Assembly (NCBI RefSeq): GCF_001553645.1 | Contig: NZ_CP014231.1 | Location: 1,488,001-1,552,000, forward strand | Reading direction: 5' to 3' | DNA from: Leptotrichia sp. oral taxon 847 | Lineage (GTDB): Bacteria > Fusobacteriota > Fusobacteriia > Fusobacteriales > Leptotrichiaceae | Length of the DNA stretch: 64,000 nucleotides | Part shown: piece by piece, positions 48,188 to 56,734 of the stretch | Layout of the letters: each line of letters begins with the position of its first letter | How positions within the stretch are numbered: the stretch's first letter is position 1 | Notes under the pieces: generated by a model | The model's database searches: none | Told to the model about the DNA's origin: nothing | Seen by the model: the letters and a program-made list of their open reading frames with translations, nothing else | Position numbers and translations under genes: made by a program

Positions 48188-48925
48188 TTAATAAAAATTT
48201 ATTACCATTTTGTCATCTAAATTAACATTTCCTGCGAGAAGTTCAAAATGTTCGTTGTTTTTATTTTTAGTTATGTTTTTAAATTCGTATCCTTTGTAAT
48301 CTATATTTTTTATTTTTTTAGCTGACTTATTGTAAATATTTACATAAAAAATTTCCGCTTTATTTTTATTTAAAAAATTATTTACTAACTCAAAACTGTA
48401 TGTAAAATCTTTTGTTTGTAAAAAATTTGTATTTTGTAAATCGTAGGAAAGAAAAATTTTTCCTTCTTTACTTGGTTCTATAACTTTTGAAATTGCAAAC
48501 CATTCTCTTTGAATATTTTCGTTTTTTTGATTTTTGTAAATATTTTCATCAAATTTTATGACAGCTCTCAAATTTTGAGATTTTTTGTAATCGGAGAAAA
48601 ATTTTATATTTTTTATATATCGTCCTCTGTTATTTGTATTTTTATTACTAAAATCTTCTTTTTCTACTTTTTCGATATTTGAATCCAGCCAAAAAAGAAA
48701 TGTTGATTTCACATTGTAATTTCCAACATTTTCAAAAGTGTAAAAACTTTCAACTTTTATAGTATTATCTTTTTCAATCGTGATATTAAGATCTTCTCTT
48801 TTAATTATAAGTGGCTCTTGTCGTACAATTTTTACATTCCCAACTGCTAAAAATTTACTTTTTTCTGAAAATGCTATTATATTTATTAATAAAAACGTTA
48901 TTAAAATAAGTATTTTTTTTAACAT
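48188..48925 (-). CDS. Exported protein of unknown function
   Basis: A 245-residue protein with a signal peptide (MLKKILILITFLLINIIAFS) and a predicted beta-rich mature part (VESFYTFENVGNYNVKSTFLFWLD...). No family is recognised. A GTG at 48931 is in frame, but GGAAAGG stands before the ATG at 48925. Same strand as rsmD and just upstream of it. Confidence 0.6.
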   Translation of the reverse strand: MLKKILILITFLLINIIAFSEKSKFLAVGNVKIVRQEPLIIKREDLNITIEKDNTIKVESFYTFENVGNYNVKSTFLFWLDSNIEKVEKEDFSNKNTNNRGRYIKNIKFFSDYKKSQNLRAVIKFDENIYKNQKNENIQREWFAISKVIEPSKEGKIFLSYDLQNTNFLQTKDFTYSFELVNNFLNKNKAEIFYVNIYNKSAKKIKNIDYKGYEFKNITKNKNNEHFELLAGNVNLDDKMVINFY

Positions 48926-50518: not shown

Positions 50519-51154
50519 TTATAATTTTAATGAGTTAATTTTATTTTGGTAATCTCCACTAAAGATGTAAGAGCCAGCAACTAATATGTTTGCACCAGCT
50601 TCTACTGCAAGTTTTCCAGTTTCATTATTTATTCCGCCGTCCACTTCAATGTCAATTTTTGGAGCTAATTTTCTCAATTCTTTTATTTTAGTAAGCATTT
50701 CTGGGATAAATTTTTGTCCGCCAAAACCAGGATTTACCGTCATAATTAGCACCATGTCGATGTTATTTAAATCATATTTTAAAACATCTAGTGGAGTCGA
50801 TGGGTTAAGAGCTACTCCTACCTTTTTTTCCATAGACTTTATTAGTTGAATGGTTCTATTTAAATGTTTTGTACTTTCTGCGTGAACAGTAATAATATCT
50901 GCACAGTCTTTGAATAAATGAATTAGATGACAAGGATCTTCAACCATCAAATGAACATCAAAAACAAGGCTTGTGTGAGGTCTTATCGCTTTTAAAACAG
51001 GTGTGCCAAAACTAATATTTGGTACAAAGTTTCCATCCATAACGTCGAGATGAAGAAAGTCAGCTCCAAAATTTTCAACTTCCTGAATTTCTTTTTTTAG
51101 ATTACTAAAATCCGCTGCTAATAGAGAAGGTGCAACAATTATCTTTTTTCCCAT
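50519..51154 (-). CDS. rpe: Ribulose-phosphate 3-epimerase
   Basis: A 211-residue TIM-barrel enzyme that interconverts ribulose 5-phosphate and xylulose 5-phosphate. PSLLAADFSNL, HLDVMDGNFVPNISFG, MTVNPGFGGQKFI and EVDGGIN are seen, with metal-binding residues in the second and fourth. Downstream of rsgA by 27 bp. Confidence 0.95.
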   Translation of the reverse strand: MGKKIIVAPSLLAADFSNLKKEIQEVENFGADFLHLDVMDGNFVPNISFGTPVLKAIRPHTSLVFDVHLMVEDPCHLIHLFKDCADIITVHAESTKHLNRTIQLIKSMEKKVGVALNPSTPLDVLKYDLNNIDMVLIMTVNPGFGGQKFIPEMLTKIKELRKLAPKIDIEVDGGINNETGKLAVEAGANILVAGSYIFSGDYQNKINSLKL

Positions 51155-51181: not shown

Positions 51182-52072
51182 TTATTTGATTTTTATATTT
51201 TCCAGTGAATAAAGGTAAAAGTCATATCGTTTTTTATGAATTTTATGGTTTTGTACATTTTCTTTAATCGCACAAAAAGGCTCATTTGTGTGAATGCAAT
51301 CACGAAATTTGCAATTTTGTAAAAATTGTAGGAACTCTGGAAACAGTAGCTCCAATTCCTTTTTATTTTTTAATTTTGGAAAATCAAGTGTAGAAAATCC
51401 CGGTGTATCAATTATGTAAGAATTTTCGTTTGTCATAAAAAATCTACTTTCAGTGGTCGTGTGGCGTCCTTTTTTTGTTTTTTGACTGATGTCATTTGTT
51501 GTAAGTATTTTTTCACCTATCAAAGAATTTATAAGTGTGGATTTTCCTGATCCAGATGGTCCAGAAATTACGATAGACTTTTTATTTATATAATTCTTCA
51601 ATTCTTGAATTCCTAAATTTTCTTTTATGGAAATTGGAAACACACAAATCGTATTTTTAAAAATTTTCTCAAAATCGTCTAAAAACTGATTTAGTTCATT
51701 TTCAGAAACCAAGTCAATTTTTGATAAAATCAAAATACACGGAATATTTTGATAATTTGCGTTTAATAACATTTTTTGAAAGTTAGTAAAATCAAACTTT
51801 GGATTTTTAATTGCAAATAAAATACCGATAAAATCTATATTTGAAATTAGTGGCCTAATCAAATAATTTTTTCTCTCAAAAATTTTAGTTATAACTTTTT
51901 CATTTTCGTCAAATTCTACGACATCTCCAATAATACAGTTCATTTTGTTGTTTTTTACTTTTAGGCTACCTCGCAATTTACATTCGTAAATGTTATTTTC
52001 TTCCAAATTTTTCGCATCTTTATCCACGATATAGTAAAAACCTTTAATTTTTCTGATAACTTTTCCTTTTAT
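51182..52072 (-). CDS. rsgA: Ribosome small-subunit-dependent GTPase A, probable AUA start
   Basis: RsgA has an N-terminal OB-fold, a permuted GTPase (LSKID, SGPSGSGKSTLINSLIG, then DTPGFSTLDF) and a C-terminal zinc motif (FRDCIHTNEPFCAIKENV). It helps mature the 30S subunit. A start at the GTG (52027) would cut the first OB strand. The frame is open from 52087, and at 52072 an ATA begins IKGKVIRKIKGFYYIVDKD, as in family members (MxKGxVxKxxGxFYYV). AGGAG ends seven bases before this ATA, so AUA is the best-supported start. The result is 296 residues. Confidence 0.85.
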   Translation of the reverse strand: MKGKVIRKIKGFYYIVDKDAKNLEENNIYECKLRGSLKVKNNKMNCIIGDVVEFDENEKVITKIFERKNYLIRPLISNIDFIGILFAIKNPKFDFTNFQKMLLNANYQNIPCILILSKIDLVSENELNQFLDDFEKIFKNTICVFPISIKENLGIQELKNYINKKSIVISGPSGSGKSTLINSLIGEKILTTNDISQKTKKGRHTTTESRFFMTNENSYIIDTPGFSTLDFPKLKNKKELELLFPEFLQFLQNCKFRDCIHTNEPFCAIKENVQNHKIHKKRYDFYLYSLENIKIK

Positions 52073-52103
52073 AACTTTTCTCCTCTCCTAGTAGTAAAGA
52101 ATT

Positions 52104-53093
52104 TTACTCACCATCCTCATTTTGTGGCGGTGATTGCTGACTGCTTGAATTATTTCCTTGCGAAGAAGAATGACCTGAAGAATTTGAGTTACTTCCTCCG
52201 CTACTTCCACTGTTTGTTGTATTAGTGTTTGTACCTTTATTTTCTGTTTCGCTGTTGTCAATTTTGTTAATTGTGTCGTCAATTGCTTTTTCTATTCCAT
52301 TTTTGTTGATATCACTTTTTGAATTATTTATGATTTCCTCAGTTGTTTGACGTTTTCTAGCACGGGAAACTGTATTTATGACAACAGATACATTTTGTCC
52401 ATGCTGAATTCTAGCTCCAGCTGCAGGATTTGTGGAAATAATAGTGTTTAGTGGCAATGTCTGATCACTTGTGTAAGATACATTTTGAATATTTATTCCC
52501 ACTTGTTTAGCAAGCTCTCTTGCGTCGTTCAAATCAAGTCCGATTAAATTTGGCATTACAGACGGATCTATCATTTGCTGAGAAGATACAAGTATTGAAA
52601 TTTTTTGATTAATTTCAAGTTTTGTTCCAGGCTTTGGATAAACTCCCAAAATTGTGTTATATTTTTGGTTTGACGGATAATAGTCAATAGTTTCAATTTG
52701 AATATTTTGTCCTTTTAATTTTGAACGTGCTTCCAAAAGTTCAAGTCCAATTATATTTGGCACAACTTGATTTTGTCCATTATTTACCCAAATTTTTATA
52801 ACTCTATTCACCTTAACTTTTTTTCCAGGACGCGGATCCTGATTGTGAACCACGTTTAGCGGTACTTTTTCAGTTTTTGAATGAATAACTTTGACCTTTA
52901 GACCAGCTTCTTTCAAATATTTAATAGCTTCTTTTTCATTCAGGTTAGTAACATTCGGAATAACAGTCATACGAGTGTTAAAAAAATGTCTTTCAAACAC
53001 ACCTCGTCCAAAAATTCCTAGCGTTACTAAACAAATCATCACAATAACAAATCTTGTTACTTTACCGGGATTTAATTTTTTTGTTGTTGCCAT
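52104..53093 (-). CDS. PASTA-domain membrane protein lacking a kinase domain
   Basis: A 329-residue protein: one membrane helix (about 17-37), then three PASTA domains (about 46-112, 113-182 and 183-247), and a low-complexity Ser/Asn/Gly-rich C-terminus. PASTA domains bind peptidoglycan or muropeptides. In Firmicutes the place before rsgA-rpe is held by the PASTA kinase PrkC; here the cytosolic part is only about 16 residues (MATTKKLNPGKVTRFV) and has no kinase. A start at 53105 is possible, but GAGGTG precedes the ATG at 53093. Confidence 0.82.
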   Translation of the reverse strand: MATTKKLNPGKVTRFVIVMICLVTLGIFGRGVFERHFFNTRMTVIPNVTNLNEKEAIKYLKEAGLKVKVIHSKTEKVPLNVVHNQDPRPGKKVKVNRVIKIWVNNGQNQVVPNIIGLELLEARSKLKGQNIQIETIDYYPSNQKYNTILGVYPKPGTKLEINQKISILVSSQQMIDPSVMPNLIGLDLNDARELAKQVGINIQNVSYTSDQTLPLNTIISTNPAAGARIQHGQNVSVVINTVSRARKRQTTEEIINNSKSDINKNGIEKAIDDTINKIDNSETENKGTNTNTTNSGSSGGSNSNSSGHSSSQGNNSSSQQSPPQNEDGE

Positions 53094-53323
53094 CGTACAC
53101 CTCATATTTTTATAATTTTTATTTTAATAAATTACTCATTAATATAATATCACAATTAATAAATAAATACAATTTTTAAATTAAAGATTGTAAACTAAAA
53201 AATCAACTTTAAAATTATACTTTTAAAATAAAAAAAATATGGTATAATTATGATTAAGATAATAAAAAATAAATAAAATTTAAAAAATAAAAAAATTAAA
53301 AACAAAAAAAGAAGGAGGATTTT

Positions 53324-54457
53324 ATGAAAAAAATAATGATGTCTTTGCTTATTTTAAGTAGCTTTAATTTGTTTTCATCAAATGAGAATCTTATAAGAAA
53401 AATAAGTGTGACTGGAAATTCTGAAAAAGAAGTTATGCCAGATATTGCGGTTATAAATTTTTTGATTTCAGAAAAAGACAAAGATTTGAATGTGGCTACA
53501 AAAAAGGCAAAAGATGCGCTAGAAAATTTTAAAAAAGAACTTGGCGCTAGAAAAATTCAAACGGGAGAAATTGAGACAGTTTCATTTTACGATACAAAAA
53601 AGACGGAGTATGAAGAAGATATAAAGCCAAAAAATTCAAAAAATCAAAAACAAAAAAGTGAAATAAAAACGCCAGTTTCTTATACCGCCGAAATTGAGAT
53701 TTTGGTAAAAAATATTGATTTTAATAGATTAAGTGGATTAATTGGTGTAGATGGGGACAAAAATTTTAGTAAAATTGAAAAAAATTTTTCTCAAAATGCT
53801 TATTCTGTAAATTTGAAAGAAACAGATAAAACTGTGGATGCGGCTTTGAATGAATTATTTGTCAAAGTAAACGATGTAAAAGAAAAATTGCAAAGCGTGA
53901 GTGAAACTAAAAATGACGTCATCTTTGGTGGATATAAAATTACTGAAAATTATACAAATGACAGTAAAACACCTGTTGACATGTATTATGTAAATCATAA
54001 TTTAAAATTGACAGTAAAAAATTTAAAAAATTTGAATACGATAATTTCTATTGCTGCGGACAATGATATTAATATAAATGGCTCAATTCAATTTGACTTG
54101 TCAAATAAAGATGAAATTGAGCGGCAGATGTATAAACAGGCATTTAATGAAGCTGAGAAGAAGGCAAAAAGCATATTAAAGTCAAGTGTGCTAAAACTTG
54201 GAAAGCCAATTATAGTCAGCGAAGATTTGGATTTTCAGCAAAAAATGATAGATAAAATTGACAGTCAGTGGGAAGTGAAAGCAGTAACAAACACAGTAGA
54301 ACTTCCAGCGCCAGAAAAAGAATACGGTTTTACTGCTGAATATTCAGATGGATACGGATATTCTTCAGCAAAAAGAGCAGTCAGTACAAAAGTTGATTAT
54401 ACTCCAAAACCACTGAAATTAGAGCAAAATGTGTCTGTGATGTATGAGATAAAATGA
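53324..54457 (+). CDS. SIMPL-domain (DUF541) exported protein 1
   Basis: A 377-residue protein with a signal peptide (MKKIMMSLLILSSFNLFS) and the SIMPL (DUF541) domain: KISVTGNSEKEVMPDIAVINFLISEKDKDL at the start and ...DEIERQMYKQAFNEAEKKAKSILKSS...PIIVSEDL later. Family members act in the periplasm, and oligomerise in some cases; function is unclear. It is the first of three tandem paralogues. GGAGGATTTT before the ATG. Confidence 0.82.
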   Translation: MKKIMMSLLILSSFNLFSSNENLIRKISVTGNSEKEVMPDIAVINFLISEKDKDLNVATKKAKDALENFKKELGARKIQTGEIETVSFYDTKKTEYEEDIKPKNSKNQKQKSEIKTPVSYTAEIEILVKNIDFNRLSGLIGVDGDKNFSKIEKNFSQNAYSVNLKETDKTVDAALNELFVKVNDVKEKLQSVSETKNDVIFGGYKITENYTNDSKTPVDMYYVNHNLKLTVKNLKNLNTIISIAADNDININGSIQFDLSNKDEIERQMYKQAFNEAEKKAKSILKSSVLKLGKPIIVSEDLDFQQKMIDKIDSQWEVKAVTNTVELPAPEKEYGFTAEYSDGYGYSSAKRAVSTKVDYTPKPLKLEQNVSVMYEIK

Positions 54458-54546
54458 TTTTTATAAAAGAGAAAAGAAAAAAATAAAAAGTCAATAGAAA
54501 AGTGATCAATGGATAAAATTGTAAAGTCTTTAAAGGAGATATAAAC

Positions 54547-55638
54547 ATGAAAAAAATATTAGTGGTACTTTTTGCATTATTAAGTCTAAATATTTTTTCT
54601 GCAAATGAAGATAATGTAAAAAAAATAAGCGTGACGGGAAATGCACAAAGAGAAATCATGCCAGATATGGCAACTTTGAGCTTTCAAATTAAGGACAAGG
54701 ACAAAACTTTGAGTGCGGCGTCTTCCAAAGTGAAGCAAAAACTGGAAAAATTTAAAAAGGATTTGAGAGCGCAAAATATTGAGATTAGTAATATTGAAAC
54801 AGTTTCTCTCTCAGATAGAAAAATTAAAGATAAAAATTATTCAGACAATAAAAGTGTGTCTTCATATTCTGGTCAAATGAGTATTTTTGTAAAAAATGTA
54901 GATTTTGAAAAGCTGGGAGAACTCATTGAACTAAATAACGGAGATAAATTTCAAAGCGTGAAAAAGGATGAGAAAGAAAATGTTTACGAAATTAAGTTAA
55001 AAGAAAGCGATAAGACATTAAATGGCACTTTGAATAAATTATTTTCAAAACTGGATATTTTGAGAAGTAAACTAAAAGCAATAAATGCAACAAAAAATAA
55101 TGTTTTTTTTGGAGATTATGAAATTAAAGAAAATGCCAAAAATTATAAAGAAACGGAAGTTTATGAAGTAACTCACAATTTAAAAGTTACAACAAAAAAT
55201 TTAAAAGATTTGAATGCGATAATAACTTTGGCGGACACCGATGGCCTTAATATAGCAGGTTCGATAAAATTTGACTTGTCCAACAGAAATGAAATCGAGT
55301 CGCAGATGTACAGTGATGCCTATAATGAAGCAAGACAAAAGGCAGAAAGTATCTTAAAGTCAAGTAATTTAAAAGTTGGAGATGTGATTGTCGTAAGTGA
55401 AGATGTGGACTTTCAGCAAAAAATGATAGATAGGATTGACAGCCAATGGGAAGTGAAAACACAAGCTAATGATTTAACAGAAGAAAGAAATTCTTCAGGA
55501 ATGCAGATAAGAGGTGGGTATGATTTTAATAGAGGCTATAGAGACTATAAAGTTGGGAAAACAAGAGTTGACTACACTCCAAAACCTTTAAAAATAGAGC
55601 AAAATATATCTGTGATGTATGAGATGCAAAAAAAATAA
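54547..55638 (+). CDS. SIMPL-domain (DUF541) exported protein 2
   Basis: A 363-residue paralogue of the preceding gene with the same layout (signal peptide MKKILVVLFALLSLNIFS, KISVTGNAQREIMPDMATLSF, DEEFQQKMIDRIDSQWEV). It shares KISVTGN, DFQQKMID.IDSQWEVK and VDYTPKPLK with paralogue 1, more than with paralogue 3. Position between the two others indicates recent tandem duplication. AAAGGAG precedes the ATG. Confidence 0.82.
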   Translation: MKKILVVLFALLSLNIFSANEDNVKKISVTGNAQREIMPDMATLSFQIKDKDKTLSAASSKVKQKLEKFKKDLRAQNIEISNIETVSLSDRKIKDKNYSDNKSVSSYSGQMSIFVKNVDFEKLGELIELNNGDKFQSVKKDEKENVYEIKLKESDKTLNGTLNKLFSKLDILRSKLKAINATKNNVFFGDYEIKENAKNYKETEVYEVTHNLKVTTKNLKDLNAIITLADTDGLNIAGSIKFDLSNRNEIESQMYSDAYNEARQKAESILKSSNLKVGDVIVVSEDVDFQQKMIDRIDSQWEVKTQANDLTEERNSSGMQIRGGYDFNRGYRDYKVGKTRVDYTPKPLKIEQNISVMYEMQKK

Positions 55639-55684
55639 ATGAAAGGAGATAAAATTATTTAAATAATAATTTTAAAATAAAAAA

Positions 55685-56734
55685 ATGAAAAAAATAATGA
55701 CATTTTTATTTATGATGACTTGTGTTTTAACATTTTCTGATGTCGTCTCTGGAAAAAGAATACAAGTTAGAGGAATTGCGAAAAAAGAAATATTTCCAAA
55801 TTCAGCAAAAGTGGAGCTTACAATAAAAACTCAAGATGAAAATTTGGATAAAGCGAGTCGGGAAAATTCGCAAAGACTTGAAAAATTTAAAAGTTTACTA
55901 AGTAAATCTGGTGGAAAATATGAAAAGATAGATTCAGTTTCTTATTTTACCGATAAATCTTATGATTGGGAATATGAAACGGTCAATAAGGGAGCGAAGG
56001 AATACGAAACAGTTTTAACAATTGAAGCAGATAAGCTTGAGTTAAACAGTTTAAAAGACTTTTTGCAGATTTTATCAAATGAAAAAATTTATAAAGTTGA
56101 AATAAATTCACAAGGAATAAATACTTTTGAGATAAAAGCAAGGGATAAAACAGCTAAAGCCGCTTACCAGAAAGCGATTGATAAATTTAACGGTTTACAA
56201 AAGAAACTTGGCACAAAAGGACTTAGAAATATTGTAAAAATTGCTGGATTTAAAAATGACGAAGTCAGTCTTGAAAAAAGAGAAAGTGTAAAAAAAGAAG
56301 TTAACACAGTCACTCACAATGTTGAAGTTACAACTAGAGATATGAAAAGTCTGGGAAATATAATAAGCGTTGCGTATGCGGTTGGGATTGGGACAAATGG
56401 GTACATTGAATATGATATTGATAACAAGCAGAAATTGGAAGATGAGCTGTATGAAAGCGCTTATAAGGAAGCTCTAAAAAAGGCACAAGTTATTTTGGGA
56501 AAAACTAATTTGAGCTTAAAAAATCCAGTTACAATAACTGATAAGTCAAATGGAGTTATCCGAGCATATTCTGATTACAATTATAACTACAATTTATATG
56601 CTTCGATTGATTCAAAAATTTTGGAAAAAAGTGACAAAGAATTAATGGACAAGGTTTTGGAAAAAAATATAGTTATAAATCCATCAAAACTCAATATTTC
56701 AAAAGAAGTTTACATTGAATTTGAGATGAATTAA
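55685..56734 (+). CDS. SIMPL-domain (DUF541) exported protein 3
   Basis: A 349-residue, more divergent paralogue: signal peptide (MKKIMTFLFMMTCVLTFS), IQVRGIAKKEIFPNSAKVELTIKTQDENLD, then KLEDELYESAYKEALKKAQVILGKTN. It lacks the DFQQKMID stretch of the first two. The AAAGGAG before it lies 38 bases upstream of the ATG, so the start or the leader is uncertain. Confidence 0.8.
   Translation: MKKIMTFLFMMTCVLTFSDVVSGKRIQVRGIAKKEIFPNSAKVELTIKTQDENLDKASRENSQRLEKFKSLLSKSGGKYEKIDSVSYFTDKSYDWEYETVNKGAKEYETVLTIEADKLELNSLKDFLQILSNEKIYKVEINSQGINTFEIKARDKTAKAAYQKAIDKFNGLQKKLGTKGLRNIVKIAGFKNDEVSLEKRESVKKEVNTVTHNVEVTTRDMKSLGNIISVAYAVGIGTNGYIEYDIDNKQKLEDELYESAYKEALKKAQVILGKTNLSLKNPVTITDKSNGVIRAYSDYNYNYNLYASIDSKILEKSDKELMDKVLEKNIVINPSKLNISKEVYIEFEMN

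Follow-up and report, generated by a model that had tools for sequence, protein, structure and literature searches.

Initiation at AUU, AUC or AUA (here AUH, written ATH for ATT, ATC or ATA in DNA) is known for very few bacterial genes. Among 61,358 reconstructed ancestral AUG starts, a single switch to AUU was found, with strong selection for AUG (PMC5622118). The closest described system is infC, the gene for IF3, which starts at AUU or AUA (AUU in E. coli, AUA in S. aureus; PMC13009471) and is subject to IF3 autocontrol. In S. aureus, the starts of infC (AUA), ccpN (AUA) and cvfC1 (AUU) are all accompanied by extended Shine-Dalgarno (SD) sequences, and reporters of the latter two genes reach about 10-30% of AUG output (PMC13009471). 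The AUU start of E. coli pcnB is reported to limit expression (cited in PMC1780047). Another possible case is lepA, which encodes a ribosome-linked GTPase: in Borrelia burgdorferi and Bacillus licheniformis, the full-length protein requires an AUU start (PMC1780047).

We describe a probable start of this kind for rsgA of Leptotrichia sp. oral taxon 847 and its relatives. Like infC, rsgA appears to begin with an AUH codon and has no usable canonical codon, carries a strong SD at 7 nt, and has kept AUH and avoided AUG. It differs from infC in encoding a 30S maturation GTPase, so that any control loop would run via subunit quality and not via IF3 directly. With ccpN and cvfC1 it shares a conserved non-canonical start and an extended SD outside infC. 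However, the start of ccpN is shared by S. aureus and B. subtilis and that of cvfC1 is kept among staphylococci (PMC13009471), whereas the rsgA start extends over the greater part of a phylum and reappears in a single family of another phylum. The proposed rsgA start may limit expression as that of pcnB does, but the latter is reported as an output limit and not as a phylum-wide conserved feature (PMC1780047). The lepA starts, unlike that of rsgA, are isolated cases from annotation repair with no conservation shown there (PMC1780047). As far as we have seen, the kind of start is known (infC, pcnB, ccpN), and what is new is the gene, the phylum-wide retention and a possible loop via 30S maturation. 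Our literature search, covering rsgA, AUU starts in general and non-AUG starts in Fusobacteria, returned no earlier report of such a start for rsgA, an absence that is not proof since most subscription papers lay outside the search; it returned no Fusobacterium ribosome-profiling data set either.

The window analysed is a 64,000-nucleotide stretch of the complete 2.19-Mb genome, and the positions of the relevant features within it are collected in Table 1. From 52090, the minus strand reads TAG GAG AGG AGA AAA GTT ATA AAA GGA AAA GTT ATC AGA AAA ATT AAA GGT TTT TAC TAT ATC GTG, with the rsgA frame open to 52087. A first-pass annotation, made from the letters alone, had placed the start of rsgA at the ATA, and its reading of the site holds. 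No ATG, GTG or TTG precedes GTG 52027 in the open frame, and the only strong SD is indeed the one seven bases before the ATA. The SD-anti-SD duplex has an energy of -13.5 kcal/mol at the ATA versus -3.8 kcal/mol at the GTG, the best canonical codon, and only 14 of 40,000 random ATH codons from the same genome have an SD as strong as that of rsgA.

Table 1. Features of the rsgA region, in window coordinates.
Feature	Position	Strand	Remarks
rpe (named from sequence), downstream gene, ATG start with SD	50519..51154	-	
Proposed rsgA coding sequence, 296 aa; ATA 52072-52070 to stop TAA 51184-51182	51182..52072	-	conserved across Fusobacteriota
First canonical in-frame codon, GTG, poor SD (-3.8 kcal/mol)	52025..52027	-	not conserved
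Codons 2-15 (KGKVIRKIKGFYYI), first strand of the RsgA N-terminal (OB) domain	52028..52069	-	lost if GTG 52027 is the start
Proposed initiation codon ATA	52070..52072	-	homologous codon ATT/ATC/ATA in 89/96 genomes, canonical in 0
SD AGGAGAGGAG, 7 nt (AAAAGTT) 5′ of ATA, duplex energy -13.5 kcal/mol	52080..52089	-	
In-frame stop TAG, five codons 5′ of ATA, where the frame closes	52088..52090	-	
Upstream gene, encoding a protein that matches the PASTA domain three times; stop 31 nt before ATA	52104..53105	-	

The open reading frame encodes the GTPase RsgA (YjeQ/CpgA), with 157 bits for the Pfam domain RsgA_GTPase (PF03193) and 202 bits for the equivalog TIGR00157 (cut-off 100). The stretch 5′ of the first GTG had been said to match the RsgA N-terminus, which profile and structure bear out. 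The RsgA_N domain (PF16745, cut-off 27) scores 41.3 bits when the protein is read from the ATA and 27.9 bits when it is read from the GTG, in which case it enters the profile at position 16. The alignment of the ATA-started protein with the solved B. subtilis structure 1T9H (1t9h_A) begins at residue 2; by profile score and alignment, the N-terminal OB domain is complete when read from the ATA. Within Leptotrichia and near genera, codons 2-15 show 475 synonymous versus 118 nonsynonymous pairwise codon differences, counts that share ancestry and of which the ratio, not the number, is meaningful; random single changes in these codons would be expected to yield 24 synonymous to 102 nonsynonymous ones. 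Codons 2-15 evolve as protein and are under purifying selection.

These data bear directly on the reading that translation starts at GTG 52027 and that the stretch upstream of it, which includes VIRKIKGFYYIVDK, is a leader or noncoding. As the first canonical codon in the frame, this GTG would be picked by any gene finder that considers only ATG, GTG and TTG. Such programs would truncate or misplace RsgA here, and would misplace infC as well. Against the GTG stand its weak SD, the conservation of codons 2-15 as protein, the alignment with 1T9H from residue 2 and the drop of the RsgA_N score from 41 to 28 bits; moreover, its position is canonical in just 6 of 96 genomes. A start at the GTG was rejected on grounds of SD, conservation and structure, and we regard it as very unlikely indeed.

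The comparison with related species that the first-pass annotation had suggested was carried out across the phylum. We searched 98 Fusobacteriota genomes for rsgA and could read its 5′ end in 96. The codon homologous to ATA 52072 is ATT in 43, ATC in 28 and ATA in 18 of these, and ATG, GTG or TTG in none. An SD-backed ATH that beats every canonical codon (compared from -10 to +15) by at least 4 kcal/mol is present in 76 of the 96 genomes, representing 24 of 28 genera; 72 of these starts sit at the homologous position and four a few codons upstream. In 63 of the 96 genomes, no canonical codon occurs between the upstream stop and codon 8, and in one (G034) the stop TAA directly abuts the ATT start. 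Where an in-frame GTG, TTG or ATG does occur just upstream, it usually lies within or abuts the SD (for example GAGGTG AAT TCT ATT). The pattern extends to a genome outside the order (G097), with ATT after AAGGAGG. An SD at normal spacing is missing from ten long-spacing Leptotrichia loci and from G022. The 98-genome search gave no convincing rsgA match for G050, which is 99% complete, or for G060, a small genome; these are possible losses.

On the RsgA tree, the start codon changed state at least 25 times. A canonical start is the outcome of only four of these changes, and in each case it sits at another position than the codon homologous to the ATA (for example ATG ATA ATA GAA in genus g5). 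The third base of that codon changed at least about 20 times, never to G. Since ATG is one base change away and was never taken at that codon, the AUH codon at the rsgA start appears to be kept by selection across Fusobacteriota, as judged from these comparisons. It is not indispensable, since the start has shifted to an ATG in genus g5 (four species), in genus g3 (two species) and in G070, and perhaps to a TTG in G035.

The same comparison answers the worry that the true codon is ATG and the ATA a sequencing error, for which one wrong base would suffice. Including the source genome, 89 of the 96 genomes carry ATT, ATC or ATA here, and two sister species have ATA upstream, each with its own SD. 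Dozens of other species thus remove this concern, and we consider an error vanishingly improbable. A start farther upstream is ruled out, as a stop 0-8 codons upstream closes the frame in many genomes. Taken together, the nearly phylum-wide AUU, AUC or AUA and the protein-level conservation of codons 2-15 strongly support the start first proposed: translation of RsgA almost certainly begins at AUA 52072, where initiation would be with fMet.

Ten Leptotrichia loci (clade B: L004-L012 and L032) show an unusual variant of this arrangement, in which 47-49 nt, or 134-166 nt in three species, separate the SD (AGAAAGGAGA) from the ATH. In all ten, arms of the form GGGAG...CTCYC between the two elements pair with a probability of 0.91-1.0, while the length of the loop varies; the folded hairpin would set the SD about 10 nt from the ATH. 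Three loci (L005, L008 and L012) have an expanded loop of about 100-130 nt that holds a terminator-like hairpin. That the arms were retained although the loop lengthened by about 100 nt argues for a functional hairpin. In phage T4 genes 38 and 25, a hairpin likewise brings the SD to the start, over 22-27 nt (PMC3014915). The clade B hairpin, also between SD and start, would cut 47-166 nt to about 10, but here the physical spacing is much longer and the start codon is AUH. Such a spacing-restoring hairpin is found in clade B and not in the source genome. With 7 to about 166 nt between SD and start, the hairpin-bridged Leptotrichia forms provide a natural series of SD spacings. Two other candidates in this region were rejected: a leader peptide (ATGGGAGTT...), whose ATG is replaced by ACG in L005 and L008 although these loci preserve the hairpin arms, and a -1 slip at CCCAAAT, the spacing of which to the start differs by one base among species. 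In one Leptotrichia species (L023/L032, G008:C1:231881-232766), the reading frame of rsgA shifts after about codon 105 and the gene is disrupted, reflecting either a pseudogene or an assembly error.

Outside Fusobacteriota, to the extent that N-termini could be located, ordinary starts were found in 20 RsgA genes of other phyla, in two Clostridia MAGs and in E. coli (TTG), with one exception (G135). In family f44, which belongs to the order of this genome, one RsgA copy starts with ATT or ATC in 14 of 14 fetched loci, behind an SD of GGAGGTG or GGGGGTG (-13 to -16 kcal/mol). The layout GGAGGTG-N6-ATT/ATC is found in one of two RsgA copies (L199-L226; the start of L221 was read separately, the pattern search having matched another place there), and ATG is used by the second f44 copy and by sister families. 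This AUH start looks like convergence with Fusobacteriota. With an in-frame GTG inside its SD, the f44 case is not as clear-cut as that of Fusobacteriota.

Several controls were drawn from the same genomes. A match to the downstream gene rpe was present and started with ATG in 30 of 30 loci checked; in five of these the energy rule picked an ATA just behind the ATG, which was verified by eye. Several Fusobacteriota genomes carry a second, longer RsgA paralog, and in G088, G094, G089 and G083 this paralog starts at an ATG in the homologous position, backed by a good SD, and the first copy has ATH. In a sample of the source genome (464 kb, 21%, 462 ORFs), a strong SD with ATH and no comparable canonical start was convincing only for infC and rsgA, both ATA, in keeping with the rarity of AUA starts asserted earlier. 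The likeness to infC drawn at the same time is apt as well: infC of this genome (L104:8243-8776, G000:C1 about 48,243-48,776) starts with ATA (GGAGGTGTTCTTT ATA AGAGGA) following GGAGGTG, and its relatives have mostly ATA and in a few cases ATT. A third candidate AUH gene, ORF L123:4268-5170 (ATC, SD -13.4), was set aside in favor of a likely ATG start 12 codons downstream; by eye, it possibly encodes an acyltransferase.

As the most likely reason for the retention of AUH, we propose a feedback loop. The initiator tRNA would read AUA 52072 as (formyl)methionine, and the strong SD would compensate for the weak codon. IF3 on mature 30S subunits rejects AUH codons, and poor 30S maturation or scarce IF3 would relax this discrimination, raise RsgA synthesis and allow 30S maturation to be completed. 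Conversely, plentiful mature, IF3-competent 30S subunits would let RsgA synthesis fall, closing a negative feedback. With the same AUA in the source genome, infC would be the partner gene of this loop. According to the literature, IF3 discriminates against AUH codons. In 30S-assembly mutants, AUC initiation rises 2-4-fold, and the 30S subunits of strains that lack ksgA or rbfA show poor IF3 binding (PMC10250234). RbfA is released by RsgA at a late stage of 30S maturation and is also displaced by IF3 (PMC13246957). We give homeostatic control of rsgA through IF3 and 30S maturation slightly less than an even chance. The broader reading, that AUH serves in Fusobacteriota, and independently in one family of another phylum, to sense how mature 30S subunits are and whether IF3 occupies them, is similarly tentative, its probability falling just short of one half. 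Should it hold, AUH on both rsgA and the IF3 gene of the same genomes would mean that start-codon fidelity may report 30S quality and control its maturation factor.

An AUA start would also be expected to give a lower rsgA output than AUG. It could be a fixed volume control that keeps RsgA scarce relative to its co-transcribed neighbours without any sensing of IF3 or 30S subunits. RsgA is likely needed in small amounts only, and a constant low-output start without feedback would have the same anatomy and look identical in sequence. Precedents are E. coli pcnB, kept low by AUU, and cvfC1, whose AUU output is about 10% of that of AUG and unaffected by medium (PMC13009471). On the other hand, easier routes to low expression (weak SD, GUG, UUG) are used elsewhere, as in E. 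coli rsgA with its TTG, and a strong SD joined to a weak codon, an arrangement that infC shows too, fits codon-based regulation better than mere weakness. The same choice was also made in a second phylum. We consider a fixed control nearly evenly probable in its own right; regulation is modestly favoured over constant low output by this arrangement of SD and codon, by its pairing with infC and by its reappearance in the second phylum.

The gene order on the minus strand (PASTA protein, rsgA, rpe) suggests a further alternative, in which ribosomes terminating on the PASTA gene re-initiate at the AUA and the odd codon is tolerated through coupling, without regulation. The gap of 31 nt is short, coupling helps weak starts, and rpe follows rsgA in 30 relatives checked. 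Yet a strong independent SD is retained, AUH is still kept in the long-spacing Leptotrichia clade, where the upstream stop is farther off, and coupling leaves the constant absence of ATG at that codon unexplained. We therefore regard coupling as unlikely. No kinase domain was found in the PASTA protein itself. Farther upstream, at 53324-56734 on the plus strand of the window, lie three related ORFs in a row (377, 363 and 349 aa), all with a signal-like N-terminus, which by eye possibly belong to the SIMPL (DUF541) family.
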